From Sulfurospirillum halorespirans DSM 13726 (GTDB taxonomy: Bacteria > Campylobacterota > Campylobacteria > Campylobacterales > Sulfurospirillaceae), in NCBI RefSeq assembly GCF_001723605.1, contig NZ_CP017111.1:2480001-2544000 (forward strand): a stretch of 64,000 nt of DNA, read 5' to 3'. Below the pieces are notes generated by a model. That model was not told the DNA's origin. It saw only the letters and a list, made by a program, of their open reading frames with translations, and did no database searches. This document shows, one piece after another, positions 15,946 through 30,487 of this stretch; position 1 is the stretch's first letter, and each line of letters opens with the position of its first letter. The position numbers and the translations under genes are program-made.

Positions 15946-16584
15946 ATGTCAGAGAAGTTTTATTCGAGAGTCAGTCGCATCGTTGCGGGCAGTCTTAATG
16001 CCATTATTGATGCCGCTGAGGGTATTTCACCAGAGATTATTGCGAAGCAGAGTATTCGTGAGATTGAAAAAGTAGCAAGTGACATCAAGCTTGAACTGGG
16101 CAAAGATGTCGTGAAGCAAAAGCTTATTAAGGAGCGAATAGATTCTTACAACGCTGAGCACAATAAGCTTCTAGCTCAAGTCAAAATTGCGCTTAAAGAA
16201 GACAGAGAAGACCTTGCGGAAGCAGGACTTGCAGAACAAATTTCAATCGAAGAAAAAATCAAAGCAAACCAAGTGCAGATGGACGCACTTCAAAAAGAGA
16301 TAACCACCTATCAGGAGTACCTTGATAAACTCTCTGCCAAGAAAAAAGATATGGACAGTGAGCTTAAAGCTCTTTCGAGCAAACCAAATGCCATTGATTC
16401 CCTTGCAACAAAAGATAAACTTGACAAAGCAGAAGAGGCGTTTTACCGTGTCATGGGCGATGAATTAAGAGAAGCGGACAAAACAAGCAAAGACACCTCC
16501 AAACTCAATGAACTTGATGAATTGGCTAAAAACAATCAAGTTAGTGAGCGCTTAGCTGCACTAAAGGCTACGTTGAATGTTTGA
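15946..16584 (+). CDS. PspA/IM30-family membrane-stress protein
   Basis: The 212-residue protein is almost entirely coiled coil and starts with an amphipathic helix (FYSRVSRIVAGSLNAIIDAAE), followed by QSIREIEK and repeated heptads, as in PspA/IM30 proteins. These assemble on the inner face of the cytoplasmic membrane and maintain its integrity under stress. The first gene of a three-gene operon, it overlaps the next by 8 bp. An AAGGAGA ribosome site lies before the ATG. The PspA-YqiJ-flotillin arrangement is a known association, which supports the call. Confidence 0.88.
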   Translation: MSEKFYSRVSRIVAGSLNAIIDAAEGISPEIIAKQSIREIEKVASDIKLELGKDVVKQKLIKERIDSYNAEHNKLLAQVKIALKEDREDLAEAGLAEQISIEEKIKANQVQMDALQKEITTYQEYLDKLSAKKKDMDSELKALSSKPNAIDSLATKDKLDKAEEAFYRVMGDELREADKTSKDTSKLNELDELAKNNQVSERLAALKATLNV

Positions 16585-17227
16585 TATGTTTTGGCTCCCA
16601 GAACTGCAACCTTTCACAATCGCATTGATTATAATGCTTGTGATTGCCTTGCTTGAGGGCGTTGGTCTATTGCTAGGTGTGGGATTATCAACACTGTTTG
16701 ATTCTCTTTTGCCCGATATCGACTTTGACATCAATGAACCTAGTGGTGCTTTAACACATTTTATGGGGTGGATGAATATCGGGCGTGTGCCATTGTTGGC
16801 TATTATCATCTGCTTTTTAACATCTTTTGGTGCGATTGGATATTTAATACAATCCATTCTATATGGCGTCATGGGAATCTTTCTTCCCTCTGCCCTTGCC
16901 ATAGTGCTCTCTTTTGCGATGGCACTGCCTGCAACGAGGATAACCACCAATGCAATTCGCAAAGTGATTCCCTCCGATGAAAGTTCGGCTCTTTCGCAAG
17001 AAGACCTTATAGGCTCAGCGGCAACGATTACGCTAGGGCGTGCAACAAAAGGTTCTCCAGCAGAGGCTAAGTATGTGGATAAATACGAACAAGCGCACTA
17101 TTTTATGGTTGAGCCAGAAGAGGGTGGCATTGAGTTTAAAGCGGGTGAGACGGTGATTTTAGCGAAACAATCACCCAAAGGCTTTTATGCTATTAAAAAT
17201 ACACTATCCCAATTGGAAAAGGAATAA
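16577..17227 (+). CDS. YqiJ/NfeD-like membrane protein with OB-fold
   Basis: The 216-residue protein has about three membrane helices in the first 120 residues (for example FTIALIIMLVIALLEGVGLL, and FLPSALAIVLSFAMALP). A C-terminal beta domain (DLIGSAATITLGRA, HYFMVEPEEGG, GETVILAKQS) is typical of YqiJ/NfeD-type OB folds. NfeD-like proteins are obligate operon partners of flotillins and probably anchor or scaffold them. It overlaps the PspA-like gene by 8 bp and ends 3 bp before the flotillin gene. Confidence 0.83.
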   Translation: MFDMFWLPELQPFTIALIIMLVIALLEGVGLLLGVGLSTLFDSLLPDIDFDINEPSGALTHFMGWMNIGRVPLLAIIICFLTSFGAIGYLIQSILYGVMGIFLPSALAIVLSFAMALPATRITTNAIRKVIPSDESSALSQEDLIGSAATITLGRATKGSPAEAKYVDKYEQAHYFMVEPEEGGIEFKAGETVILAKQSPKGFYAIKNTLSQLEKE

Positions 17228-17230
17228 ACG

Positions 17231-18886
17231 ATGATTAATGATACGATTATAATGATAGCGGGGGCAGCCATCATAGCACTTATAACGATTGCCTTGATTG
17301 TCGCAAGACTTTATAAACGCTCATCAAAAGAGATGGCATTTGTACGCACAGGGCTTGGCGGTGAAAAAGTGGTGCTTAATGGTGGTGCTATCGTTCTTCC
17401 TATCTTTCATGAAATTGCATTGGTCAATATGCAAACGTTGCGCCTTGAGGTGCGAAGAGAACAGTCCCAAGCATTGATTACGGGTGATCGTATGCGTGTG
17501 GATGTGCAAGCAGAATTTTACGTACGTGTTAAACCAGAGATTAGCTCCATTGCTCAAGCAGCACAAGCATTGGGACAAAGAACACTCAACCCCGATATGC
17601 TGAAAGAGTTAATTGAAGGTAAGTTCGTTGATGCCTTGCGTGCGGTTGCGGCTGAAATGGAGATGATACAACTGCATGAAAAGCGTTCCGATTTTGTTCA
17701 AAAAGTTCAACAAGCAGTTGCAGAGGACTTACTTAAAAATGGTCTTGAATTAGAATCCGTTTCACTCACAGGACTTGATCAAACGGGCAAAGAGCATTTT
17801 AATCCTAACAATGCCTTTGATGCTGAGGGTTTACTCCGCCTTACGCAGACTATTGAAGAGCGCAATAAACTTCGCAACGATATTGAGCGCGACACGGCTG
17901 TTCAGATTCAACAAAAAAATCTTCAAACAACCAAAGAAGCACTCAATCTTCAGCAAGATGAGGAATATGCCAGATTAGAACAATCACGAGAGATTGAAAT
18001 GAAAAAGGCACAACAAGAAGCTGACATCAAGATAGAACAATCCAATCAAAACAAAAAATCTGAGACCGTTAAACTCTCTGCAAACCAAGAGATTGAGCAA
18101 GCGCGCATCATTACTGAGCGAAAAATTGAAGAACAACATATCGAAAAAGTTAAAACCATTAAGCTTGCGGAACAAGACAAAGAAATTAGCATCAGCAACA
18201 AATCCAAAGAAGAGTCTGAAGCAAAAGCGGTAGCAGATGAAGCACGTGCAAAAGCCGTAGAAGCAGAGGAAAAAATCAATACGGCTCGTCAAGTTGCAAT
18301 TGCCAACAGAAACAAAGACGTTGAGATCATTAAGGCAAATGAAGAAGCGGAAAAAGATGCGGTTACGATTAAAGTGGGTGCTCAAGCAGAGAAAATCGCT
18401 GCACAAGATCGAGCTGAAGCGATTAAACTTGAAGCACAAGGTAAAGCAGATGCTGTTAGAATCCAAGCAGAAGCCGATGAAAAGCGTTTTGCCGTTCAAG
18501 CCGAAGGTGAAAAAGCCATCAATGAAGCCAACAATGTTTTATCAGCAGAACAAGTGAAAATGCGCATCCAAATAGCGCTTATGCAAGCATTACCCGCTAT
18601 TATCGAGCAAAGTGTTAAACCGATGGAACATATTGATTCTATTAAAATTATTGATGTTGGGAACATGTCAAATGGTGCATCAAATACATCAGGTGGTTCC
18701 ACAAGTATAGGAGAAAGTGATTTTTCCGATAATATGGTCAAAGCTGCGATGAAATATCAGGTTCAAAAACCTTTGGTTGATAAATTATTAAACGACATTG
18801 GTATCACCGATATTGGCAATCTTTCAGACATCGTCATGTCGCACAAAAACATTCAAGAGCCTCTACAGCCAAATAATCCATCTTAA
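17231..18886 (+). CDS. YqiK-type flotillin
   Basis: The 551-residue protein has an N-terminal membrane hairpin (about residues 6-25), an SPFH domain (VRTGLGGEKVVLNGGAIVLP, EFYVRVKPE), a long coiled coil rich in A, E and K, and a C-terminal flotillin tail (QIALMQALPAIIEQSVKP). YqiK-type flotillins organise ordered membrane microdomains and are co-expressed with YqiJ and often PspA. The long, low-complexity antisense frame opposite the coiled coil is an artefact. The start has an AAAGGAATAAACG ribosome site. Confidence 0.9.
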   Translation: MINDTIIMIAGAAIIALITIALIVARLYKRSSKEMAFVRTGLGGEKVVLNGGAIVLPIFHEIALVNMQTLRLEVRREQSQALITGDRMRVDVQAEFYVRVKPEISSIAQAAQALGQRTLNPDMLKELIEGKFVDALRAVAAEMEMIQLHEKRSDFVQKVQQAVAEDLLKNGLELESVSLTGLDQTGKEHFNPNNAFDAEGLLRLTQTIEERNKLRNDIERDTAVQIQQKNLQTTKEALNLQQDEEYARLEQSREIEMKKAQQEADIKIEQSNQNKKSETVKLSANQEIEQARIITERKIEEQHIEKVKTIKLAEQDKEISISNKSKEESEAKAVADEARAKAVEAEEKINTARQVAIANRNKDVEIIKANEEAEKDAVTIKVGAQAEKIAAQDRAEAIKLEAQGKADAVRIQAEADEKRFAVQAEGEKAINEANNVLSAEQVKMRIQIALMQALPAIIEQSVKPMEHIDSIKIIDVGNMSNGASNTSGGSTSIGESDFSDNMVKAAMKYQVQKPLVDKLLNDIGITDIGNLSDIVMSHKNIQEPLQPNNPS

Positions 18887-19836: not shown

Positions 19837-19858
19837 AAGAGGAGCTTATGCCTCTTTT
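19835..19858. terminator. Bidirectional terminator
   Basis: AAAAGAGG (19835-19842), an 8-base loop and CCTCTTTT (19851-19858) form a symmetric stem with A and T tracts. It lies between the stops of the convergent kinase-like gene and the 117-residue membrane-protein gene. Confidence 0.65.
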
Positions 19859-20199
19859 GGCTTTGGTTTGCGTGTTCGCTTTGGCTTCGTTTCAGAGGCG
19901 ACGACTGTTTCACTCGTGCTTTCAGCCTTGTGAGCCGCTTTGACACTGCTTTTTTTAGACGGCTGATAAAGCATGTGATGCCAGAGTGAAAAACCAACCA
20001 GCGCCACACCTGCACCAATGTGAAGGTTTTTCATAACCTTAGACTTCATCCCAAAAGAGGTGCCGATCACTATCGCCATTGAAGTGGTCATGCCGATCTT
20101 TGCAACCTCTTTTTTTGTGTCTAAGTCCCATGTCTTAAAGCTTGGTAGTTTTAGCTCTTTTTTTGTCAAATTTTCTTTTTGCATTTTTTCCTGTCTCAT
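19846..20199 (-). CDS. Small membrane protein with basic Pro/Lys tail
   Basis: This 117-residue protein has two hydrophobic segments (about residues 34-50 and 58-76, including LHIGAGVALVGFSLWHHMLY). A C-terminal tail is rich in K, S, E and P (KPKRTRKPKPKEA). I do not recognise the family. A tandem helix pair with histidines in the second helix might hold a cofactor. It sits behind a Fur-box-like site (20267) with the small 39-codon frame just upstream, beside the P1B ATPase operon, so an iron-related membrane role is plausible but inferred. Confidence 0.7.
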   Translation of the reverse strand: MRQEKMQKENLTKKELKLPSFKTWDLDTKKEVAKIGMTTSMAIVIGTSFGMKSKVMKNLHIGAGVALVGFSLWHHMLYQPSKKSSVKAAHKAESTSETVVASETKPKRTRKPKPKEA

Positions 20200-20254
20200 A
20201 CGTTAATGCCAAGGTTAAAACCGCGGCAATTCCAAGGGGAAAGAGAAGAGGCAT
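20135..20254 (-). CDS. Possible 39-residue single-helix membrane peptide
   Basis: A short frame from ATG 20254 to TAA 20135 encodes a hydrophobic N-terminal helix (MPLLFPLGIAAVLTLALTY) and a strongly basic tail (KNAKRKFDKKRAK). AAAGGA lies 6 bases before the ATG and a Fur-box-like repeat about 13 bp upstream. It overlaps the first 22 codons of the 117-residue protein in another frame. The layout recalls the YtxH-like small proteins of the adjacent operon. Coding is likely but unproven. Confidence 0.45.
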   Translation of the reverse strand: MPLLFPLGIAAVLTLALTYETGKNAKRKFDKKRAKTTKL

Positions 20255-20266
20255 GTAAATCCTTTT

Positions 20267-20283
20267 ATGATATAAGTTATCAT
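20267..20283. promoter_or_regulatory. Fur-box-like site upstream of the 39/117-residue genes
   Basis: ATGATA-TAAGT-TATCAT is a perfect 6-5-6 inverted repeat. The same arms recur exactly at 30516 and 43948 before TonB receptor genes. Confidence 0.7.
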
Positions 20284-20313
20284 AATTATAAAACCTCTCC
20301 CCTAAGACTTAGC

Positions 20314-22413
20314 TTAGCTTTTTTCTATACGAATTTTTTGCATGGAATTGAGTAATAATCCAATCGTCGTTCCATTATGCAAAAAGGCTGTTTTTACAGG
20401 ACTGAGTAAGCCTACAGCCGCACCCATCAATATAAAACTGTTAATACCCACGGTGGCATTAAAGTTACTCTGAATGCGCGCCATCGTTTTATTTGCCAAG
20501 ATTTTGGCTTCCACAACCGCATCGATGTCATCTTTGAGCAAGCTAATATCCGCCGTTGCTTTGGCGATGTCAGCACCTTTGTACATGCTGATGCCGACAT
20601 TGGCGTTCATAAGTGCGGGGGCGTCATTGATGCCATCGCCTATAAACGCGACATGCTTGCCGCTTTCTTTGAGCGCTTGCACGATGTTGGATTTATCGGT
20701 CGGTAGCAGTCTTGCATACACGGTGTCGATGCCCAGCTCTTTGGCTAAGGCTTGGGCTTTATCTTCCACGTCACCTGTGAGCATGACGATCTCTTTTGCC
20801 CCTAATTTTCTTAGTTTCAAAAGGGCTTCTTTGGCATTGGCACGCACACGGTCTATCATACCGATGGTGCCTAAAAGTTTGTTATCATACGCGATGTAGA
20901 GCAAGATTTTGCCATTTTCCAAACACTTCTCGATCTTGGCTTCGTGCTCACTAAAAGAGACCTGCTCATCTTCTTCCAAGAAGTGACGACTTCCGATGAT
21001 CGCCTCTTTGCCATTGATCTGTGTGCGAACGCCATGCGCAACGATAAACTCTACCTCATCATGGTGCATGTGCACAAATCCACGCTCTTTCGCCGCTTTG
21101 ACGACGGCTTCAGCGACAGGGTGGAAGTAGTGCTCTTCCGCACTTGCCGTGAGATTTAAAATCGCATCTTTACTCCACTCTTTATCAAACGAGTAAATCT
21201 CGACCACTTCAAGCTCACCGTGCGTCAAAGTGCCTGTTTTATCGAAAATAAATGTATCGACATGCGAAAGCGCTTCTAAAGCTTTCGCCCCTTTGATAAG
21301 GATGCCATGATGCCCTGCGATGGAAAGCGAATTTTTAAACGCCACAGGCGTAGCGAGTTTCAGTGCACACGAATAGTCTGCTTGTAAAACCGCGGCAACA
21401 CTTGCCATATCACGACGTATCAGATACGAAAGTCCTGCCATCCCTAAGGTAATGGGAACGAGTTTATCGGCTAAGTGCGTGGCTTTGAGACCAATGGCAG
21501 ACTTTTCATCGAGGGAGCTTTTGATGTAGTGTCTGATGCGTTGTGTTGCCGTGTCATCTCCGACTTGCTCCGCCCAGATGCGAATGCGCCCTGATTCGAC
21601 AATGGTACCTGAGATAACCCGTCCACCACGCTCTTTTTTCACAGGCTCCGCTTCACCCGTCATCGAAACTTGATTGATCGACGCCATTCCATCGATGATA
21701 TGCCCATCAATCGGAATCGTATCGCCAGCACCTACAATAACGATGTCACCGACTTTCACCTCAGCGGTGCTGATGCGTTTTTCGGTTCGTTTGCCCTTCT
21801 CTTCCACTTCGATCCACGCCGCTTCCACATTGGGTTTAGCCAGTTCTTTGATGAGATCATCGCTTTTGTGTACCGTGGTCTCTTCGATATATTCGCCAAT
21901 TTCAAGCATGAGATTGGTGCTATTTGCCGCACTGTAATCGCTTCGTGCCAAAGAGACGCCCACCGCCATCGCTTCAAGGACTTTAGAGGTTAATCCTTCG
22001 CTAAAGAGCTCAAAAAGTCCCTCCTTGAGCAAAGGAATGCTCGCAAGGGTACTCACGGCAAGTTTGAGTCGCGGTTGGGGAATGAATGGCTGAAATGCCA
22101 GTGCCATACCTGAGCGTACAATGCCTTTCATGCTAGGCGCTTCGTCGTGATCATTGAAGCATGCGTTGATCGAAGCATCGCAGATTTGGTAGTGCCCAAT
22201 GTCAAGCTGTTGGAGGTGTTTTAAAAGCGCCTTTTCATCCAAATGCTCACCTTCAAATACAACAGAGCCTATTTTAGCATTGACGCGCACTTCACGCACA
22301 CCTTCAATCTTTTTAAGGTCGTTTGCAAGAGCGTGCGCATTGATCTGCTTAAGCGCAGGAGTCACATAGCGCAGTCGCTGGGATGTTTGATGAATCAGGC
22401 GTGTTTTGTGCAT
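20314..22413 (-). CDS. P1B-type metal ATPase with SCA motif (ferrosome FezB-like)
   Basis: The 699-residue ATPase has an HMA-like N-terminus (about 1-80) with no CxxC. Instead it has IHQTSQRLRY and an IGS turn, closely matching the separate 105-residue protein of the operon. Key motifs are TGEAEP (252-257), DKTGTLT (391-397), MLTGD and GDGINDAPALMNA. At the usual CPC position in the membrane it has SCALKLATP (SCA at 348-350). This class is, as I recall, P1B-6, the class linked to ferrosome iron-storage vesicles. With ferritin-like and small glycine-rich membrane proteins upstream, I infer iron pumping into a vesicle or the periplasm. Ni, Co or Mn export is the alternative. Confidence 0.82.
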   Translation of the reverse strand: MHKTRLIHQTSQRLRYVTPALKQINAHALANDLKKIEGVREVRVNAKIGSVVFEGEHLDEKALLKHLQQLDIGHYQICDASINACFNDHDEAPSMKGIVRSGMALAFQPFIPQPRLKLAVSTLASIPLLKEGLFELFSEGLTSKVLEAMAVGVSLARSDYSAANSTNLMLEIGEYIEETTVHKSDDLIKELAKPNVEAAWIEVEEKGKRTEKRISTAEVKVGDIVIVGAGDTIPIDGHIIDGMASINQVSMTGEAEPVKKERGGRVISGTIVESGRIRIWAEQVGDDTATQRIRHYIKSSLDEKSAIGLKATHLADKLVPITLGMAGLSYLIRRDMASVAAVLQADYSCALKLATPVAFKNSLSIAGHHGILIKGAKALEALSHVDTFIFDKTGTLTHGELEVVEIYSFDKEWSKDAILNLTASAEEHYFHPVAEAVVKAAKERGFVHMHHDEVEFIVAHGVRTQINGKEAIIGSRHFLEEDEQVSFSEHEAKIEKCLENGKILLYIAYDNKLLGTIGMIDRVRANAKEALLKLRKLGAKEIVMLTGDVEDKAQALAKELGIDTVYARLLPTDKSNIVQALKESGKHVAFIGDGINDAPALMNANVGISMYKGADIAKATADISLLKDDIDAVVEAKILANKTMARIQSNFNATVGINSFILMGAAVGLLSPVKTAFLHNGTTIGLLLNSMQKIRIEKS

Positions 22414-22417
22414 AAAA

Positions 22418-22720
22418 TTATGCTTCTTTAGCCGCTAACTCAGCTTTAGCATCTTCAAAACGTTCTTTCATCTCTTCGATGCCTGCTTGGAACATTTCAG
22501 TGCCTTTGGCAATCGTTTTGAAAAGATTTTTCTGCGCTTTTTCATTGGTTAGCAAATAAGCACCTACCGCGCCGATGAGGGCACCCATGACAAACTGTTT
22601 GGTGTTAAATGCTCCAAAAAGATGTTCAGGATTACTGAGCATTCCGTTTTCGTTTTTCGCCTCAGTGGCAGGCTCGCCCCCAATGTAGGGGTTTTTGTCC
22701 AGTGAAGATAATAGTTCCAT
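22418..22720 (-). CDS. Small glycine-zipper membrane protein (YtxH-like), 100 aa
   Basis: The protein has one hydrophobic, glycine-patterned helix, FVMGALIGAVGAYLL (about residues 43-57), between a polar N-terminal half and a charged amphipathic helix (FQAGIEEMKERFEDAKAEL). The GALIGAVGA motif recurs in the C-terminal anchor of the ferritin-like protein of the same operon and, loosely, in the 68-residue protein. It overlaps the upstream gene by one base and ends 4 bp before the ATPase start. A structural role in a membrane vesicle is inferred. Confidence 0.72.
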   Translation of the reverse strand: MELLSSLDKNPYIGGEPATEAKNENGMLSNPEHLFGAFNTKQFVMGALIGAVGAYLLTNEKAQKNLFKTIAKGTEMFQAGIEEMKERFEDAKAELAAKEA

Positions 22721-23079
22721 TATTTTGTTTCCTCTTCGGTTGTTGATACGTCAATCGTTTGTGTGCATGTGCATGTTTTTTCATACAGTTTTTCAACACC
22801 ATAAATGCCTGCAACGCCCACAGTAAGGGAACCTAAAAGTCCAAGCCAGCTGTTACGTCCAAGTGCATTGGCTGCTGCAATCGCACTGCCCGTGGCGATG
22901 CCACCTTGAACGGTTAGTTTAAGGCTCTGTTTGATCGCCTCATCTTTGCTAAGCTCTGATTGTTTGTACTTCGTGTACGAAAGAGCCGTTGCTACCATGC
23001 CAGCCGCCAACGCACCACTGATCATATTGCCAGCGACACTGCGAGGGGTTCCTGTATTGATCGTGATTTTAGGGGTCAT
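22720..23079 (-). CDS. Glycine-rich membrane protein, 119 aa
   Basis: I do not recognise a family. The sequence has two or three weakly hydrophobic, Gly/Ala-rich segments (VAGNMISGALAAGMVATAL, GGIATGSAIAAANALG, WLGLLGSLTVGVAGIYGVEK). A short tail follows with CTCTQTIDV, whose two cysteines could bind metal. The composition resembles small magnetosome or ferrosome membrane proteins in style only. Its start overlaps the stop of the 68-residue gene as ATGA and it overlaps the next gene by one base, so translation of the series is tightly coupled. Confidence 0.7.
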   Translation of the reverse strand: MTPKITINTGTPRSVAGNMISGALAAGMVATALSYTKYKQSELSKDEAIKQSLKLTVQGGIATGSAIAAANALGRNSWLGLLGSLTVGVAGIYGVEKLYEKTCTCTQTIDVSTTEEETK

Positions 23080-23282
23080 TGTACCTCCTCTTTTGTTTTT
23101 ACATGTAAAGCTTTTTTGGACTTAATGCACTCGATGGTTCCATCAACGCTTTTCTTCATCTCTTCCGCGACCTCTTTGGCTTTGCAAACGCCTTGTTCAA
23201 GACCTTCTTTAAGCTCTTTTTTCTTAGTAAATGCAATCACAGCAGCGGCACCTGCAAGGGCGCCTACGATAAATGGTAACAT
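23076..23282 (-). CDS. Small YtxH-like membrane protein, 68 aa
   Basis: The N-terminal helix MLPFIVGALAGAAAVIAF is followed by a highly charged helix (KKKELKEGLEQGV, KAKEVAEEMKKS) and a short tail with a cysteine. This is a typical single-pass YtxH-like layout. It lies 30 bp after the ferritin-like gene with an AAGGAGAAAACC ribosome site. A TTACATGTAA copy is read as LHVK near the end. It is one of three consecutive small membrane proteins in the operon. Confidence 0.72.
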   Translation of the reverse strand: MLPFIVGALAGAAAVIAFTKKKELKEGLEQGVCKAKEVAEEMKKSVDGTIECIKSKKALHVKTKEEVQ

Positions 23283-23312
23283 GGTTTTCTCCTTAAATTA
23301 GTCTTTAAAAGC

Positions 23313-23981
23313 TTACGCTTCGTTTTTTTCATCATCAGGGGCGATGACACCGCCCAGCACACTTGCACCCACAGCGCCTATCAAGGCGCCTGCTACAAAC
23401 GAAAAATTGGTGCTTAAGAGCTTAGTGATCTCCTCTTGATTGATCTCACCTTTGGCGATTTTTTGCGCCATGTGGCTGAACTCACCCCATTGTCCCATCA
23501 TGCCTTCCAGCGCTGCCATCGGATTGGCTTCTGCTGTGTGATGGGGCGTAGCATGTGAGGTCACACCGTTTCTAAACGCGGGTAAATGGTTGTTAAAGGA
23601 AGCGGCTTGAAGCCTGTAAAAAAGGTCTTGAACCTCTGCAAAATCTTTTACATGTAAAAGAAGTTCGTTGTAAAGCTGAATGTTTTGAATCTCTGCAGCA
23701 ACGCCCAGTTCGCAACATTCGCGAAGGGTGTTAGGAATGCTAATGTTTTCGGGTACCCTGCGAACAAGCGTGACATTGTGCGCTGCAGCAACGGCGATGA
23801 GCGCTTCTTGGTGGGTCTGTTCGGCTTGGATGCTGTTGACAAAAGGTGTAACAGCGCCAAATTTTTCAATGACCGCACTGTACGTCTCATACGCTTTGAC
23901 TTCATCATCAAACGCGCGTTGCAACGCCTCTTCTAGCGCTTTGTTTTCGTGCACGGGTGGGGCTACTTTCATATCAGACAA
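23313..23981 (-). CDS. Ferritin-like protein with C-terminal membrane anchor
   Basis: This is a 222-residue protein. A four-helix ferritin/rubrerythrin-like domain (about residues 14-135) carries repeated acidic and His residues in the expected pattern: DDEVKAYETYSAVIEKFG, QAEQTHQEALIAVAAAHN, ELGVAAEIQNIQLYNELL and LQAASFNNHLPAFR. After a linker, a hydrophobic glycine-zipper anchor follows (FVAGALIGAVGASVLGGVI, about 193-212). Ferritin-like domains bind diiron and store or oxidise iron. Membrane anchoring beside a P1B ATPase suggests iron loading at a vesicle membrane. It overlaps the HMA-like gene by 8 bp. Confidence 0.82.
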   Translation of the reverse strand: MSDMKVAPPVHENKALEEALQRAFDDEVKAYETYSAVIEKFGAVTPFVNSIQAEQTHQEALIAVAAAHNVTLVRRVPENISIPNTLRECCELGVAAEIQNIQLYNELLLHVKDFAEVQDLFYRLQAASFNNHLPAFRNGVTSHATPHHTAEANPMAALEGMMGQWGEFSHMAQKIAKGEINQEEITKLLSTNFSFVAGALIGAVGASVLGGVIAPDDEKNEA

Positions 23982-24291
23982 TCTCCTTTGCGAGTTGGTC
24001 TATGATCGTTATAATTTCATCAAGTTTTTCGCCTTTGACTAAATTTTCCCACAAATGATCGGGAAAAATAGCGTGGTCATACTCAACGGTTAAAGAGCCA
24101 ATCATTTTGTTAATCTTAATCGATTTAATGCCATTAATGCGAGCAGGCAATGCTTCGATGTCTTCAATACCGACGTGATGCTTATGCTCTTTAATCTTAG
24201 GACTCACGCGCAAACGAATGCGCCCTTTGATGTGATGAACAATGGAAAAATAGCCTCCAAGTTCAACTAGTTTTTCTGCTGTAACGTTCAT
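23974..24291 (-). CDS. HMA-like (cysteine-less) metal-domain protein
   Basis: The 105-residue protein starts with IVHHIKGRIRLRVSPK and has INGIKSIKINKMIGSLTVEYD. This is the ferredoxin-like HMA fold with the CxxC loop replaced by an IGS turn, as in HMA_2-type domains. The same motifs form the N-terminus of the downstream ATPase (20314-22413), so this is probably its separate partner or paralogous domain, equivalent to FezC-type proteins of ferrosome loci. It is the first gene of the operon. Two Fur-box-like sites lie directly upstream (24301, 24351). Confidence 0.75.
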   Translation of the reverse strand: MNVTAEKLVELGGYFSIVHHIKGRIRLRVSPKIKEHKHHVGIEDIEALPARINGIKSIKINKMIGSLTVEYDHAIFPDHLWENLVKGEKLDEIITIIDQLAKEIV

Positions 24292-24300
24292 AACTTTCCT

Positions 24301-24317
24301 TTGATAATTACATTGTA
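24301..24317. promoter_or_regulatory. Fur-box-like half site upstream of the ferritin/ATPase operon
   Basis: TTGATAATTACATTGTA lies 10 bp from the start codon. It matches the left arm of the window's Fur-box set (TTGATAAT) and the right arm weakly. Confidence 0.4.
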
Positions 24318-24350
24318 AGGTGGGAAGAATAAATATTAGCTTAATATTTT

Positions 24351-24367
24351 TTAAGAATTATTATCAA
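24351..24367. promoter_or_regulatory. Fur-box-like site upstream of the ferritin/ATPase operon
   Basis: TTAAGAATTATTATCAA differs at only two positions from the site at 55341 before a TonB receptor. With the site at 24301 it frames the likely promoter. Confidence 0.55.
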
Positions 24368-24451
24368 TGGTCCAAGCCATGCGAGAAGAGTTTGCCATGA
24401 TACCAATTTAGTAGTTTTGAGCGATTACATGTAAGCTTTTGAACATGGCTT

Positions 24452-24946
24452 TTAATGGCTATTTTGAGCATTGTGGCACCTTTCGCAGACACCATACAAT
24501 GTCAGCGTATGATGGGTTCCTGTAAATTTATGGGAGGCGAGTATTTCGTTTTGTTCCGCTTCGATGGCGGTATCGCAAAAACGGATGATGGCGCCACAGG
24601 TGAGGCAGACCAAGTGGTCATGATGCACGGCGCGTTTTAGTTTGTATTTTTTCATCTTTGAAGGGTAACTGAGCACCGTACTGACCATATCAAGGCTCTC
24701 AAAAAACGCCAGAATTTTATAAATGGTGGCAAGAGAAATCCGCATACACTGCTTCGTGTAAAGCTGCTGATGGATCTGTTCAGCACTCATGTAAGCATCG
24801 CACTCATAGAGTGCTCGAAGAAGAAGTTCGCGTTTTGCGGAATGGCGAATCCCTGCTTTGGCAGTCAGTTTTAAAAAGTGGGTGTAAAAGTGTTCAAACG
24901 AAGAAGAGCAAAAATTCTCTTGCTCTTCTAAAAGGTTCGCTGACAA
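24452..24946 (-). CDS. Fur-family regulator
   Basis: The 164-residue protein has a winged helix (SAKRELLLRALYECDAYMSAEQIHQQL, then RISLATIYKILAFFESLDMV) and the Fur dimer domain. The regulatory HHDHLVCLTCG motif is present, and the CLTC and CERC pairs should bind structural zinc. Its N-terminal extension (EEQENFCSSSFEHF) is longer than usual. It lies 9 bp after the porin gene and faces the ferritin/ATPase operon, so it is likely a dedicated local regulator rather than necessarily the global Fur. PerR or Zur specificity cannot be excluded from sequence alone. Confidence 0.88.
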   Translation of the reverse strand: MSANLLEEQENFCSSSFEHFYTHFLKLTAKAGIRHSAKRELLLRALYECDAYMSAEQIHQQLYTKQCMRISLATIYKILAFFESLDMVSTVLSYPSKMKKYKLKRAVHHDHLVCLTCGAIIRFCDTAIEAEQNEILASHKFTGTHHTLTLYGVCERCHNAQNSH

Positions 24947-24955
24947 CCGCTTTCC

Positions 24956-26077
24956 TTAAAAAGTATAAGCGATGTGCGCTTTAAAAGCATCGTAACTTTG
25001 AGCGTTGTCATCGTTGTCAATGTTCACGTAGATCAAAGAGGCTTCAAGATTTTTAACAATCTCATAACCAACGCTTAGATCAAGCTCTTTTTCTTTGAAT
25101 TTTAAACCTGCGTCTTCATACTTGGTTTGACCGTACAGTGCAGAGAGTTTGACCCCTTCAAGTTCGTATTCGGCGCGAACATACGGTGTTTTAGCATCGG
25201 TTGCAAAGACATAATTTCCCTCTTCAAACGGAGATTGATCGCCAAATGACTCAATGCCACCTGTTCCGTCTTTATCGGTTTTCATGTAGCCAAGACCGAG
25301 GTTGAGTCCTGCAACTTCCACACCTTGTTCCAATTGCATAAAAGAGCCATCTTTGACATCGACCACATCGCTACTTACGCTGACATAATGTGCGATCGTT
25401 GTGGTTTTAACCTCTTCGCTTGGCTCTAAGTTCAGTGTTGCTTTCAAACCATACGCACTTAAAAGGTCACTCCCGTAATATAGATAAGGATTAAGCTCCA
25501 AAGCCTCGATCGGTGTGTATTTGGCTTCGAGCATGTAGATGCCATCATTGCCGTTCATTTTTGTAAAAGATTCCGAAATTTCATCGATGTCAATGACCGC
25601 TTGTCTGCGCGCCCATACCATGCTGAGCACTAAGTTTTCCACCGCAGTGATTTCAGCGCTGACGCCATCAACGTAATCCGTTAACCAGTTAAAATCCACC
25701 GCTTGGCGACCCAGAACAAGCGCACCTAAGCCTTCGTGTTCCACTTTGATGTACGCTTCAGAAAGTGCGCTGCGATCAGCGATGGCATTTTTAAAATCGT
25801 CATCGTTTTTTTCGCTGGTTTTCATACTGCCCCAACCCGAAACACCTAGGCTTACACCATTATAAGGTGCGGTGACAAAACCCACATTCAAATAGCCATT
25901 GGAAAAACCATCATCGACGCTGCCGCCTTTACGATCGTTATTAACGCCAAACCAGCCCACGGTTCCTGTAAGTTCACCTTGCGTGAAAACCTCTTCTAAA
26001 TTGGTTGCTTCTGCAGCAAAACCCAGTGAACTCCCCAAAACAACCGCCGCGACAATACGTGAAAAATGTATTTTCAT
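24956..26077 (-). CDS. Outer-membrane porin (Opr-like)
   Basis: The 373-residue protein has a signal peptide (about 1-22) and many amphipathic beta strands with alternating aromatic residues. The sequences GELTGTVGWFGVNN, LVLGRQAVDFNWLTDYVDG and the terminal strand IAYTF-stop are typical of epsilonproteobacterial major porins. The final phenylalanine is the usual BAM signal. It is the first gene of a porin-fur operon with two Fur-box-like sites in its promoter. A general cation or ferrous-iron pore is plausible. Confidence 0.82.
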   Translation of the reverse strand: MKIHFSRIVAAVVLGSSLGFAAEATNLEEVFTQGELTGTVGWFGVNNDRKGGSVDDGFSNGYLNVGFVTAPYNGVSLGVSGWGSMKTSEKNDDDFKNAIADRSALSEAYIKVEHEGLGALVLGRQAVDFNWLTDYVDGVSAEITAVENLVLSMVWARRQAVIDIDEISESFTKMNGNDGIYMLEAKYTPIEALELNPYLYYGSDLLSAYGLKATLNLEPSEEVKTTTIAHYVSVSSDVVDVKDGSFMQLEQGVEVAGLNLGLGYMKTDKDGTGGIESFGDQSPFEEGNYVFATDAKTPYVRAEYELEGVKLSALYGQTKYEDAGLKFKEKELDLSVGYEIVKNLEASLIYVNIDNDDNAQSYDAFKAHIAYTF

Positions 26078-26092
26078 CCATGCTCCTTTATG

Positions 26093-26109
26093 ATGATAAC
26101 TATTATCGA
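26093..26109. promoter_or_regulatory. Fur-box-like site 1 upstream of the porin gene
   Basis: ATGATAACTATTATCGA contains the perfect inverted core GATAA-CTA-TTATC, 16 bp before the porin start codon. Confidence 0.6.
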
Positions 26110-26141
26110 ATCATAGCGAAAGGAGCTTAATATTTTATAAC

Positions 26142-26158
26142 ATGATACTTATTATCAA
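26142..26158. promoter_or_regulatory. Fur-box-like site 2 upstream of the porin gene
   Basis: ATGATACTTATTATCAA has perfect TGATA-N5-TATCA arms. It lies about 65 bp before the porin start and just after the stop of the preceding gene. Confidence 0.65.
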
Positions 26159-26162
26159 ATAT

Positions 26163-26615
26163 TTATCTGGGCATTTTGCGTCTGCGATAGCCATAAACTC
26201 GGTAAGCGCTTATCCCAAGAAAGAGTGCGAAAAACCCCAAGGAGACGAACCACATCGTGCGAAACGCTCTCTCTTTTTGTGACGTCGCTACCTTTTGAAA
26301 GCCATTTTGTGGAGAGGGTCCCTCTTCCACGACGTCCTGATCACCCACGTAGAGATAAACCCAATAAGACTCCTGCGGAATCTTTACATGTAAAGGTTTC
26401 CCCACCTCTAAAAAGAGCTCTAAAAGCACGCGCTTGTCGATCATAGAGATGAGTGCGACTTTGTTGCCTTCGAGTTTTTTACCTGAACCTTTCATCTTGC
26501 CTTCGATTGCAATCGTGTCGTTTTCAAGAGGCGTGAGCAGAAGGGTGATTCCTTCAATTTTATGCGCCCAAAGGTGTGTCGCTAAAAGAGCGATAAAACA
26601 CAATTTAATACCCAT
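26163..26615 (-). CDS. Exported protein with C-terminal membrane helix (iron operon)
   Basis: I start this at ATG 26615, giving about 150 residues: MGIKLCFIALLATHLWA is a clear leader and AAAGGAG lies 8 bases upstream. A longer frame would run through the PepSY gene. The mature part is beta-rich (GITLLLTPLENDTIAIEGKM, KVALISMIDKRVLLELFLEV) and a final helix (FVSLGFFALFLGISAYRVYG) anchors it with a basic end. The family is unknown to me. It overlaps the PepSY gene end by 11 bp and ends the TonB-receptor operon, so a role in periplasmic iron or haem handling is likely by position. Confidence 0.68.
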   Translation of the reverse strand: MGIKLCFIALLATHLWAHKIEGITLLLTPLENDTIAIEGKMKGSGKKLEGNKVALISMIDKRVLLELFLEVGKPLHVKIPQESYWVYLYVGDQDVVEEGPSPQNGFQKVATSQKERAFRTMWFVSLGFFALFLGISAYRVYGYRRRKMPR

Positions 26616-28164
26616 CAAAGACTCCTTTGCGCTCATAACGGTAAAAAAGCTCTTTTTTCTCAACTGCTTTTGCCAACACAAAACAGAGCAAGGCACTGAG
26701 CAAAAACATGACATCCATGCCAAAAAGCGTCCATGCCCCTTTTTCAAAACTATCCCAGATGAAAAACCCACTTTTAAGCCCATGAAACAGCACAGCAAGC
26801 ACCAAAAGCCACAAGGTGCTTTTCAGCATACGTCCAATGATCGTAACAATGGCGCGCTCAAACACCGTGTAAAAGAGCCAAAACGACCAAAACGCATAAA
26901 AAGCGCCTCGTATCCACACCTCTTTATCGAAAAGATCAAACGCTAAAAGCCACTGCAAAAAAAGCACCAGCGCACTGCTAGGCAAAATGCCAATGAGCAC
27001 AGCGATGCTAACACGGTTGGTAAGATCCCCCAGCCACCCTTTTTGATGCAGATTTTTCTCCGCCCACAAAAGATAGCCTGTTACCAAACAAAACGCTAAT
27101 GCGACACCAAAACAGGCTAAAACAATGCGCACGCCTAGCGTCTCATCGGGCACAAAGTGAAGGTAGTAAAAAAGGGAAAGCGCTTGGTTGATGCCATGCG
27201 TGTTTTCCAAACCACGCTTCTCCACCACGACGCCACTTCGTGCATCAAGGGTGATACTAAGCCGATTGATTCGCCCTGATTGAGCCACACTGTTTTTATC
27301 GAACCCACGAAAGCGTACTTTTGCCGCGTCGGTTCCATAGTGATAGAGCGTTGCATTGGTAATTTCAAGACTGGGGTAATGCTCGTTCGCGATGGCACGC
27401 AGTGTTGAAAAAGGAAGCATAATTGCCTTGGTTTCAGAGCTTTTATAAACGGGTTGCGCAAAGATGATGGGGCTCACAAGTTTGCGCATATTGCTCTCCT
27501 CTTTGCTGCTTGCACTCCAAGCAAAAGGGTGAGAATAAGAGAGCATTAAGCCCAAAAAGGCTCCCGTGCAAGCAAACACAAGCGCGTAGGGAATGATCCC
27601 AAGCCCCATGATTTTATGCCACGAAAGCCACCTGCTTTTCCAGCCCTCTTTTGATCTCTTCGTCTGCGTGTGCTTATAAAAGTAGAGCCAAAAACCGCCC
27701 AAGGTTAAGAACACTATACCAATGCTCATGATGCCCATCAGCGGCATGCCGATGAGTGGAATCACCACGCCTGTATGCAGTTCGTTAAAAAAAGTGGAGA
27801 TCAGATTCTCCTCTTTGGAGAGTTTGATCACTTCGTTGGTGAGGGGGTTAAGGTAGAGGCTATTTTGAGACTCAGACGAGAGTTTCAAAAGCGGATCGCG
27901 AAAGCTTGGAAGCGTTATATCAACGGGTTTTGAGCTCAAAAGGTGCTGCTTTTCTAACAGCTCACCCAAAAGAAGATCGATGTTAAACGCATGCTCTGCC
28001 AAAGGAACAAAATGGCGCGATGGCGACTCCCACACTTTAAGATAGGGCATAAAAAAAGTGAGCGTTCCAAAGTAGGTGCTCATGTAAAAAAGGAAAAGTA
28101 CCACAAGTCCGATGATCGTGTGCGAGCGGTGTAGGAATTTAAACCGTAATGATTTTGCAAGCAT
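26605..28164 (-). CDS. PepSY-associated TM protein (iron-uptake type)
   Basis: The 519-residue protein has four or more membrane helices and two periplasmic PepSY-like regions. The first hydrophobic block begins HRSHTIIGLVVLFLFYMSTYFG, a second has KIMGLGIIPYALVFACTGAF, and a stretch LRAIANEHYPSLEITNATLYHYG precedes GVVVEKRGLEN. This is the PepSY_TM/PiuB family, several of which reduce or pass ferric siderophore or haem iron. It is encoded behind a TonB receptor and a 98-residue membrane protein in one operon (gap 8 bp), which supports inner-membrane ferric reductase or transporter activity. Confidence 0.82.
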   Translation of the reverse strand: MLAKSLRFKFLHRSHTIIGLVVLFLFYMSTYFGTLTFFMPYLKVWESPSRHFVPLAEHAFNIDLLLGELLEKQHLLSSKPVDITLPSFRDPLLKLSSESQNSLYLNPLTNEVIKLSKEENLISTFFNELHTGVVIPLIGMPLMGIMSIGIVFLTLGGFWLYFYKHTQTKRSKEGWKSRWLSWHKIMGLGIIPYALVFACTGAFLGLMLSYSHPFAWSASSKEESNMRKLVSPIIFAQPVYKSSETKAIMLPFSTLRAIANEHYPSLEITNATLYHYGTDAAKVRFRGFDKNSVAQSGRINRLSITLDARSGVVVEKRGLENTHGINQALSLFYYLHFVPDETLGVRIVLACFGVALAFCLVTGYLLWAEKNLHQKGWLGDLTNRVSIAVLIGILPSSALVLFLQWLLAFDLFDKEVWIRGAFYAFWSFWLFYTVFERAIVTIIGRMLKSTLWLLVLAVLFHGLKSGFFIWDSFEKGAWTLFGMDVMFLLSALLCFVLAKAVEKKELFYRYERKGVFDGY

Positions 28165-28172
28165 GAAAACTC

Positions 28173-28469
28173 CTACACAAACGCGATAATACAGGCATTG
28201 AGCAGTGCCATCAACACGATTTTGAGCGTTACATGTAAAAGGTTTTTAGAGAAAAGCAACCAAAACCCAAAACCGCAGACCAACAGCGGAAAGAGAAACA
28301 TCGAAGGAAAAATGCGCTCTGCCATATCGCCCCACAAAAGGGCACTTAAGCTCGTGCCACACAGGTACGCCAAGCCAAAAGCACCCACAATCGCCAAAAC
28401 GCCGTGAGCCCAACCGATAACGGTTTTGGGCTCTTGAGATAGACGGCTCATTTTAGAGAATAAGAGCAT
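28173..28469 (-). CDS. Small three-helix membrane protein of the PepSY operon
   Basis: The 98-residue protein has three hydrophobic segments (WAHGVLAIVGAFGLAYLCG, FPSMFLFPLLVCGFGFWLLF, VTLKIVLMALLNACIIAFV). It resembles the small DUF3649-like membrane proteins found beside PepSY and TonB receptors, though I am not certain of the family. It lies 2 bp after the receptor gene and 8 bp before the PepSY gene. It probably assists the PepSY protein in iron transport across the inner membrane. Confidence 0.65.
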   Translation of the reverse strand: MLLFSKMSRLSQEPKTVIGWAHGVLAIVGAFGLAYLCGTSLSALLWGDMAERIFPSMFLFPLLVCGFGFWLLFSKNLLHVTLKIVLMALLNACIIAFV

Positions 28470-28471
28470 GA

Positions 28472-30487
28472 TTAAAATTCATACGAGAACGAGAGTTTGA
28501 TGTTACGTCCAGGTTCGTAGTCTGAGAGTGAAACACCACTAAGAAGTCTGTTTTCAGAGGCATGAGAGACGTAAGACTCATCAAAAATATTATCAACTCC
28601 TGCGATTAAGGTAAGCCCTTTAACGCTACTTGGTTTCCATTTCACTGCAATATCATGCACATCGTACGCCTCTTTGGTCTGTTGCGCGGCAATATACTGA
28701 CGCTCTTCTTCCATCACAAATAACGAATCCCATGAGAGTGAGAGGTTTTTCATAAACGCATAATCAAGGTTAACGCTTAAGCTGTCTCCCGGTTCTCTTT
28801 GCGTTGAAAGTCCTGTATTTCTAAATTTTGAGTTGGAGTGCGCATAGGTGATTAAAGAGCTAAGAGCGCCTATGTCATACACAAAACTTGCCTCAAAACC
28901 TTGAATATCAAGGGTTCCACCGTTGGTCATCTCCGCACTTGTACTGGTCGTCCATGTCGTGATAATGTAGTCATCAATACGTGTATCAAACACTTTGAAG
29001 CTAAAGCCAAGGTTTTTGGCGCCCAGTGTGTTTTTGTTCTGATATTTAAACCCAACCTCTTTGTTAATGCCCGTTTCTGCTTTAAGACCAGAGTTGTCAT
29101 TGACATACATACGGTTACTGGCTAGTACATCCACCATCTCAACACCTTTGTAAAGCGTTGTGGCACTTGCAATGAGACTGAACGTGTCGGAGAGAGGATA
29201 CTCCGCCGCCAAACCGTAGGTAAATTTACTATCAGAGATTTCGCCATACACGCCATCGTATTGATAGTTGTTGTAACGAATCCCTGGTGTTAAGATAAAG
29301 CCATTGCTAAACGCGATGGCATCTTCAACGTAAAGCGCGCCCGTTTTGGCTTTCTCATTTTCACCGTATTGCTCGCCACTCCACTCAACTTCACTGCTCT
29401 GTGTGTCGTACAAGCCGCCATACGTAAAGGTGTTATTGAAACTTCCAAGCGCGATAGTAGACTGTGCTTTGGTGTTGATACCATAGTTTTTAACCACGCC
29501 ATCCAAGAGTCCTTCATACGGGTTCATGCCCGCAGGAACAGCTCTGACACGTTGGGTGGTTCCATCGCGTTTTTCATAGCGTTGCAGCTCATTTTCATTG
29601 CTGTAAATCGAGGTTTGCAAAAAGAGATTGTCGCCTAAATCAATCTGATGTTTAAGCGTGATCGTCTCTCTGGTGTACTCGGTTGGGTAGAGATAATTTC
29701 CCGTTGCATATTGGTTATACGCTTTGCCAAAGTCAGGACGTGGCACGTAATCGCCTTCGTCTTTGAGTTTATCGTACGAGAGTGTGATGCGTTGTACATC
29801 GCTGATGTCATACCCAACTTTAATCAACGTATTGCCAACCTCGCCATCGGTTCCAAAACTCTCTTCGCCTCTGCCATCTTCCCACTCATTCTTGTCCACG
29901 TAGTGATGATACAATAAAAGATCGACCTTATCGGTGACTTTGCCATACGCTGCCACGGAGCCACCAAGGCTGTCATTGGAGTTGTAATTGCCCTGAATTC
30001 GTGCGCCATACTCTTTGCCATCTTGCAAAAGGTCTTTGCCGTCTTTGGTTTCAAACGCAACTGCACCACCCAAGCCTCCATTGACAACCGAATTAGTACC
30101 CACTTGGACATCTGCTTTTTTCAAGATGTCAGGATTGACCAGCAAGTTACCGATGTGATGGAACATATTGACATTGGAAACTTTCGCGCCATCGATGCTA
30201 ATATCGAGGTTTTCATCCTCCAAACCACGAATCGCAATACGGTTGTTGATCGAGCTCGTACCTCCCACATCCACACCAGGAAGATCGCGCAAAAGATCGC
30301 TTAAATGATCGGCCTGTTTGGTTTCAATCGAAGAACTTCCAAGATTGAGGGAGGAGCTGCTGACCTGTGTTTCCCACACTTCAACACTCTCTAACTGCTG
30401 CTCTTCCGCCATAGCAACACTGCATAAAAGCGTGGTTGTGACAAGTGATAACCTTAATGTCTGTTTTATACGGAGCGAATTTAACAT
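28472..30487 (-). CDS. TonB-dependent receptor (haem/siderophore type)
   Basis: The 671-residue protein has a signal peptide (about 1-27), a plug domain (SVEVWETQVSSSS, DLLRDLPGVDVGGTSSINNRIAIRGLED), a barrel region with IPNG-like turns and a C-terminal strand ending in F (LSFSYEF). The plug resembles HmuR/Hgp-type haem and protein-haem receptors more than catecholate receptors, but this is only a suggestion. It starts an operon with a small membrane protein, PepSY_TM and an anchored exported protein. The Fur-box-like site at 30516 lies 29 bp before the start and is shared with the divergent response regulator. Confidence 0.88.
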   Translation of the reverse strand: MLNSLRIKQTLRLSLVTTTLLCSVAMAEEQQLESVEVWETQVSSSSLNLGSSSIETKQADHLSDLLRDLPGVDVGGTSSINNRIAIRGLEDENLDISIDGAKVSNVNMFHHIGNLLVNPDILKKADVQVGTNSVVNGGLGGAVAFETKDGKDLLQDGKEYGARIQGNYNSNDSLGGSVAAYGKVTDKVDLLLYHHYVDKNEWEDGRGEESFGTDGEVGNTLIKVGYDISDVQRITLSYDKLKDEGDYVPRPDFGKAYNQYATGNYLYPTEYTRETITLKHQIDLGDNLFLQTSIYSNENELQRYEKRDGTTQRVRAVPAGMNPYEGLLDGVVKNYGINTKAQSTIALGSFNNTFTYGGLYDTQSSEVEWSGEQYGENEKAKTGALYVEDAIAFSNGFILTPGIRYNNYQYDGVYGEISDSKFTYGLAAEYPLSDTFSLIASATTLYKGVEMVDVLASNRMYVNDNSGLKAETGINKEVGFKYQNKNTLGAKNLGFSFKVFDTRIDDYIITTWTTSTSAEMTNGGTLDIQGFEASFVYDIGALSSLITYAHSNSKFRNTGLSTQREPGDSLSVNLDYAFMKNLSLSWDSLFVMEEERQYIAAQQTKEAYDVHDIAVKWKPSSVKGLTLIAGVDNIFDESYVSHASENRLLSGVSLSDYEPGRNIKLSFSYEF

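Follow-up and report, generated by a model that had tools for sequence, protein, structure and literature searches.

Bacteria are described as storing iron in two distinct ways, in protein cages or in ferrosome vesicles. In a locus of Sulfurospirillum halorespirans DSM 13726, a ferritin-like protein with a membrane anchor is encoded in one cluster with a P1B ATPase. The locus was studied within a window of 64,000 nucleotides (contig NZ_CP017111.1, positions 2,480,001 to 2,544,000) of the complete 3.03 Mb genome. Judged from its sequence, it is probably a ferrosome cluster of the Fez type. It would belong with the large clusters (Rhodopseudomonas/Azospirillum type), as a variant found in Campylobacterota to which a ferritin module has been added. 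This Fez-type reading, already put forward in the preliminary description of the locus, is supported by the marks of the pump and its place in the phylogenetic tree, the HMA and glycine-zipper partners, a FezC-like protein, the Fur-box-like promoters, and the occurrence of related clusters elsewhere. The genes concerned are the following (window coordinates):

24956-26077, minus strand: Opr-family porin, first gene of the upstream porin-fur unit (NCBIfam NF033922, E 2.5e-145)
24452-24946, minus strand: Fur-family regulator adjoining the cluster (Pfam FUR, E 4e-28)
23974-24291, minus strand: cysteine-less HMA_2 protein, 105 aa (Pfam HMA_2, E 4e-10, above cut-off)
23313-23972, minus strand: predicted ferritin-fold (DUF2202/rubrerythrin-like) protein with C-terminal glycine-zipper TM anchor, 219 aa (structure, families, ligand columns)
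23076-23282, minus strand: small 68-aa membrane protein with a glycine zipper (related to the YtxH-like family, HMM-HMM E 8e-9)
22720-23079, minus strand: MamC-like membrane protein, 119 aa (NCBIfam MamC, E 2.9e-6)
22418-22720, minus strand: YtxH-like glycine-zipper membrane protein, 100 aa (Pfam YtxH, E 1.8e-4)
20314-22413, minus strand: P1B-6-type ATPase, FezB candidate, 699 aa (motifs, families, tree)
20135-20254, minus strand: 39-aa single-TM protein (present at this position in roughly half of the loci)
19846-20199, minus strand: DUF4405-like small membrane protein, FezC candidate, 117 aa (or starting from the ATG at 20184)

The Fez-type cluster proper extends from 24291 to 19846 on the minus strand. 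The gene order is porin, Fur-family gene, HMA_2, ferritin-like, 68-aa, MamC-like, YtxH-like and P1B ATPase, followed, after a short gap, by the genes for the 39-aa membrane protein and for the DUF4405-like protein, which ends at 19846. Every gene of the preliminary description was recovered, including the HMA protein devoid of cysteine, the three small membrane proteins and the flanking porin-fur operon, and its statement that the genes are coupled also holds: stop-to-start gaps or overlaps range from -4 to +4 bases, the exception being 30 bases after the ferritin-like gene. Its end of the cluster at 20135, on the other hand, was placed 289 bases too early, so that the 39-aa ORF was taken in but the DUF4405/FezC-like gene was truncated and missed. 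An identification of the 39-aa protein as FezA was not adopted, as there is no sequence evidence for it. On the opposite strand, a YqiJ and flotillin pair (16577-18886) adjoins the cluster, while the region upstream (26605-30487) encodes a TonB-dependent receptor, a small protein and a PepSY_TM protein, and is possibly an iron-chelate uptake unit.

In the ATPase, M4 contains the motif DYSCALKLATP, and the last TM helix contains LHNGTT. The preliminary description had SCA replacing CPC; CPC is indeed absent, but the motif in register is Y-S-C (DYSCALKLATP versus ACPCALGLATP), with the second cysteine kept. An HN motif in TM6 has been reported as a mark of P1B-6 pumps, and CtpC-like pumps keep CPC (PMC9374683). 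The combination of HN in the last TM helix with no CPC in M4 was found in the window protein and its orthologues, and both motifs are common, with small changes, to the orthologues and the Azospirillum pump. A maximum-likelihood tree placed the ATPase with the pumps encoded in the clusters of Azospirillum, Cereibacter and Vibrio (support 100/99); the other P1B pumps of the genome and the DUF1490-linked CtpC-type pumps fell outside this group. Its best matches were other Fez-like pumps; the close relationship to a Ni/Co/Zn exporter that the preliminary description had named as counter-evidence was not seen, and known P1B structures matched only as distant superfamily members. The pump is 96-97% identical in Sulfurospirillum sp. 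UBA1314. Its N-terminus is HMA_2-like, without the usual metal-binding cysteine pair, and the proposed likeness of this region to the separate HMA protein was borne out (BLASTP E 2e-6, HMM-HMM E 1e-9).

It should be added that many relatives possess a second P1B ATPase between the Fur and HMA genes (e.g. L043, 10338-12662; L045, 10754-12928; L084, 4661-6835). Its N-terminus is HMA_2-like; M4 has SCPC, and the HN motif is lacking. This second ATPase forms a separate branch of the tree, and is absent from the window and its closest relatives. At two loci of one family (L055 and L098), the pump is shorter (613-617 aa) and lacks the HMA-like N-terminus, and the ferritin-like gene was not found there; the cluster at these two loci is a reduced variant.

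In the window cluster, the pump is encoded together with HMA-like and small hydrophobic proteins. Homologous clusters with the same core genes occur in other phyla. On a plasmid of Azospirillum brasilense, six genes lie together that code for an HMA2-FezC-like, an HMA, a small, a MamC-like and a YtxH-like protein and an ATPase, the last being 52% identical to the window ATPase. Profiles built from Campylobacterota proteins matched the plasmid proteins for HMA (E 6e-17), MamC-like (2e-9), YtxH-like (3e-16) and FezC-like (7e-4), while the small protein was assigned by position and its MLPxxxxxxG start only. Homologues of the HMA protein were also found in the Vibrio and Cereibacter clusters, and those of the YtxH-like protein in Azospirillum, Cereibacter and Vibrio alike (E 1e-16 to 1e-18). 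Six fez genes underlie ferrosome formation in Rhodopseudomonas palustris CGA009 (PMC12016538), and we infer that these are the same six as on the Azospirillum plasmid. With the proven fez clusters of R. palustris (RPA2333-2338), Desulfovibrio magneticus and Clostridioides difficile, which were compared by published description and bridged by the Azospirillum six-gene cluster rather than by sequence, the window cluster has in common a P1B-6-type pump, HMA proteins, small hydrophobic proteins, a DUF4405-like FezC candidate and putative Fur-type control. It differs in adding an anchored ferritin-fold protein and the 39-aa membrane protein, and its FezC-like protein is without the HMA domain seen in the Azospirillum counterpart.

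FezC, the ferrosome cytochrome, is a DUF4405-like haem b protein (PMC10979944). The DUF4405 model was matched by 22 of the 30 members of the FezC-like family, although weakly: the best E value was 7e-4, the matches fell short of the Pfam cut-off, and the window protein reached 16.1 bits against the required 26.7. Two histidines, His60 and His74, are invariant in the family, so that the DUF4405-like protein with conserved histidines expected of a FezC is present, with the weakness of the matches in mind. Some relatives of the same genus and family have a FezC-like protein that is extended at its C-terminus by a SpoIIAA/STAS-like domain (L045, 5948-6598; L046, 5568-6218; L047, 13983-14618; L048, 5507-6133).

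Among the small membrane proteins, the 119-aa one aligned almost over its full length with the NCBIfam model of the magnetosome protein MamC (Mms13). The model was matched nearly full length and in register by 23 of 35 family members (best E 8.8e-9, in Vibrio), although the 27.5 bits of the window protein are well short of the equivalog cut-off of 100. None of eight shuffled sequences matched the model, and composition alone therefore does not explain the likeness. A fold search with a model of the MamC-like protein gave no match, and a profile search of PDB sequences found no MamC. No other magnetosome gene was seen in the cluster. The protein is read as a remote homologue of magnetosome MamC, and not as a magnetosome gene; the presence of such a homologue among the small proteins of the cluster is new here.

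As to the ferritin-like protein, the single window sequence matched the rubrerythrin model with an E value of 9e-4, and the rubrerythrin or DUF2202 models were matched in 16 and 14, respectively, of 31 family members; a search of PDB sequences with the protein returned nothing credible. A structure model was built with AlphaFold using 30 relatives. It predicts a confident four-helix bundle (residues 11-141, core pLDDT >95), then a linker and a TM helix (191-208), and matches bacterioferritins and related proteins with Z of about 18 and an rmsd of 2.0 A over about 137 residues (Foldseek, VIA-align). The modelled domain thus shows the four-helix fold of the ferritin-like superfamily, and the description of the protein as ferritin-like with a membrane anchor agrees with this structure and with its C-terminal TM helix. 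Residues E24, E51xxH54, E94 and H129 are placed like ferritin ligands, as judged by position and spacing and not by atom-by-atom superposition; a complete di-iron set would comprise four acidic ligands and two histidines, and the acid expected three residues before H129, the sixth ligand, is missing. Outside one clade, which looks like Campylobacter (L053, L084-L090), 21 of 22 members retain E24, E51, H54, E94 and H129. In that clade E51, H54, Q122 and H129 have all changed together and E24 and E94 remain. Their joint loss suggests that the four residues form one site, and the retention of the protein in its place without them suggests a structural role as well. The survival of the protein in a clade devoid of the ferritin-site ligands is new here.

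The C-terminus of the protein reads FVAGALIGAVGASVLGG. The GALIGAVGA anchor which it was said to have in common with its neighbour was confirmed as shared, although the likeness covers a short stretch (19 columns, HMM-HMM E 1e-4). Stand-alone DUF2202 proteins are 34-48% identical, only over the domain (about residues 13-137). The anchor is similar to the terminal part of a protein of 184 aa from the Cereibacter cluster (E 2e-5), which suggests that a pre-existing ferrosome anchor acquired the ferritin domain. The four-helix fold and the ligand-like placement are common to DUF2202 proteins, rubrerythrins and bacterioferritins, whereas the window protein is anchored by a glycine zipper within a fez-type cluster; this fusion of a DUF2202/rubrerythrin-like ferritin domain to a ferrosome-type anchor is also new here. 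Because there is no signal peptide and only a single C-terminal helix, the ferritin domain is most likely cytosolic, and its facing the cytosol is more likely than its facing the vesicle lumen; the charge around the anchor gave no clear answer. The genome also holds two ordinary ferritin-family genes, and iron storage therefore need not depend on the cluster.

The following Fur-box-like sites were located in the promoters:

26143-26157, minus strand: Fur-box-like site TGATAATAAGTATCA before the porin gene, 13/14
26094-26108, minus strand: second Fur-box-like site before the porin gene, CGATAATAGTTATCA
24352-24366, minus strand: Fur-box-like site TGATAATAATTCTTA, 12/14, 75 bases before the HMA gene
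20268-20282, minus strand: Fur-box-like site TGATAACTTATATCA before the gene for the 39-aa protein, 11/14 (up to 13/14 in relatives)

A genome-wide search allowing three or fewer mismatches gave 337 matches to the Fur pattern against 172 to the reversed pattern, too many for ranking, and the sites were judged on orthologous promoters against shuffled controls. Upstream of the HMA gene, 11/14 was reached at 21 of 36 orthologous loci, compared with 8% of shuffles, and near relatives have the TGATAATAATTCTTA site in the same position; upstream of the 39-aa gene it was reached at 13 of 15 loci, compared with 5% of shuffles. The Fur-box-like sites claimed for the locus are thus above chance across orthologous loci, and precede the porin, HMA and 39-aa genes, consistent with putative control by a Fur-type protein. 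The genome encodes five Fur-family proteins, and a Fur-family gene lies near the cluster in many of the orthologous loci. In C. difficile, the fez genes are Fur-repressed (PMC12574912).

A P1B6-like pump with a small glycine-rich TM partner is also known from mycobacteria, and the products of the locus might, like CtpC-PacL, form an efflux platform in the plasma membrane, in which the small proteins cluster the ATPase and zinc or another toxic metal is expelled without any vesicle. CtpC has been called P1B6-like, and PacL, with its conserved GxxG-type TM helix, forms membrane patches with the pump (PMC9374683, PMC13043812); moreover, the tree has the branch of the CtpC-type pumps with DUF1490 partners close to that of the Fez-like pumps. 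However, those pumps keep CPC, where the window pump has YSC, and the mycobacterial system is further distinguished by a DUF1490 partner with a metal-binding tail and a zinc/cadmium cargo, and has no ferritin, HMA or FezC partners. No window protein matched DUF1490 or DUF6110 in Pfam, and the Fur-box-like sites, the ferritin-fold partner and the FezC-like haem-protein candidate point to iron; we regard an efflux platform of this kind as very improbable. If the cargo is iron, the pump might still export Fe(II) across the plasma membrane and detoxify the cytosol, with the ferritin-fold protein as a local ferroxidase and no organelle. The same evidence from pump and ferritin would fit such an exporter, and the genome data fit a vesicle or the plasma membrane alike. 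Yet the Fur-box-like sites suggest that the genes are expressed under iron shortage, a pattern that fits storage, as in C. difficile (PMC12574912), better than export; nor does simple export call for the several small hydrophobic proteins that are conserved together with the pump. We consider this alternative unlikely.

For the ferrosome that we favour, a working scheme may be outlined. Low iron would lift Fur repression, and the glycine-zipper proteins (the 68-aa, MamC-like, YtxH-like and 39-aa proteins and the ferritin anchor) may pack side by side into a specialized membrane patch, which would bud into a vesicle as the literature on other ferrosomes indicates. A docking or regulatory function may fall to the HMA protein, with its lack of cysteine, and to the corresponding N-terminus of the ATPase. 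Fe(II), the cargo expected from other ferrosomes, would be moved by the P1B-6 pump from the cytosol to the lumen, and the FezC-like haem protein, again by analogy with the literature on other ferrosomes, may pass electrons across the membrane and so set the redox state of iron for deposition or release. The ferritin-fold domain, tail-anchored and probably facing the cytosol, might bind Fe(II) at the pump and oxidize or shield it; this role and orientation, and the packing function, are proposals made here only.

If this is true, vesicle storage and ferritin storage of iron would be joined in one machine, with the locus putting a ferritin domain on the presumed ferrosome membrane throughout Campylobacterota, to which gut bacteria and pathogens belong, and offering a testable role for the uncharacterized DUF2202 domain. 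The MamC-like protein also raises the possibility that the membranes of ferrosomes and magnetosomes are linked in evolution. That the two organelles share a MamC-like protein of common origin, and that much of the phylum, including Campylobacter- and Helicobacter-like lineages, builds ferritin-bearing ferrosomes, is a tentative proposal, to which we give somewhat less than even chances. In the literature searched, which left out most journals and is therefore weak evidence, no link of ferrosomes to Campylobacterota or of DUF2202 to ferritin was found, nor any cell-biological data from a member of the phylum.

The pump was detected in 101 of 298 Campylobacterota genomes; the groups concerned appear to include Campylobacter, Helicobacter and Arcobacter lineages. 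The ferritin-like protein accompanies it in 96 of these 101 genomes, against 3 of the 197 without the pump, where the matches were weak and partial only; the anchored-ferritin design is thus present in about a third of the genomes of the phylum that were searched. The order HMA, ferritin-like, 68-aa, MamC-like, YtxH-like, ATPase, FezC-like is conserved in nearly all of 36 Campylobacterota loci. The whole cluster, including the ferritin-like gene, was also observed on a plasmid of Arcobacter sp. DSM 115972 (CP129951.1, L103), and can therefore be plasmid-borne.
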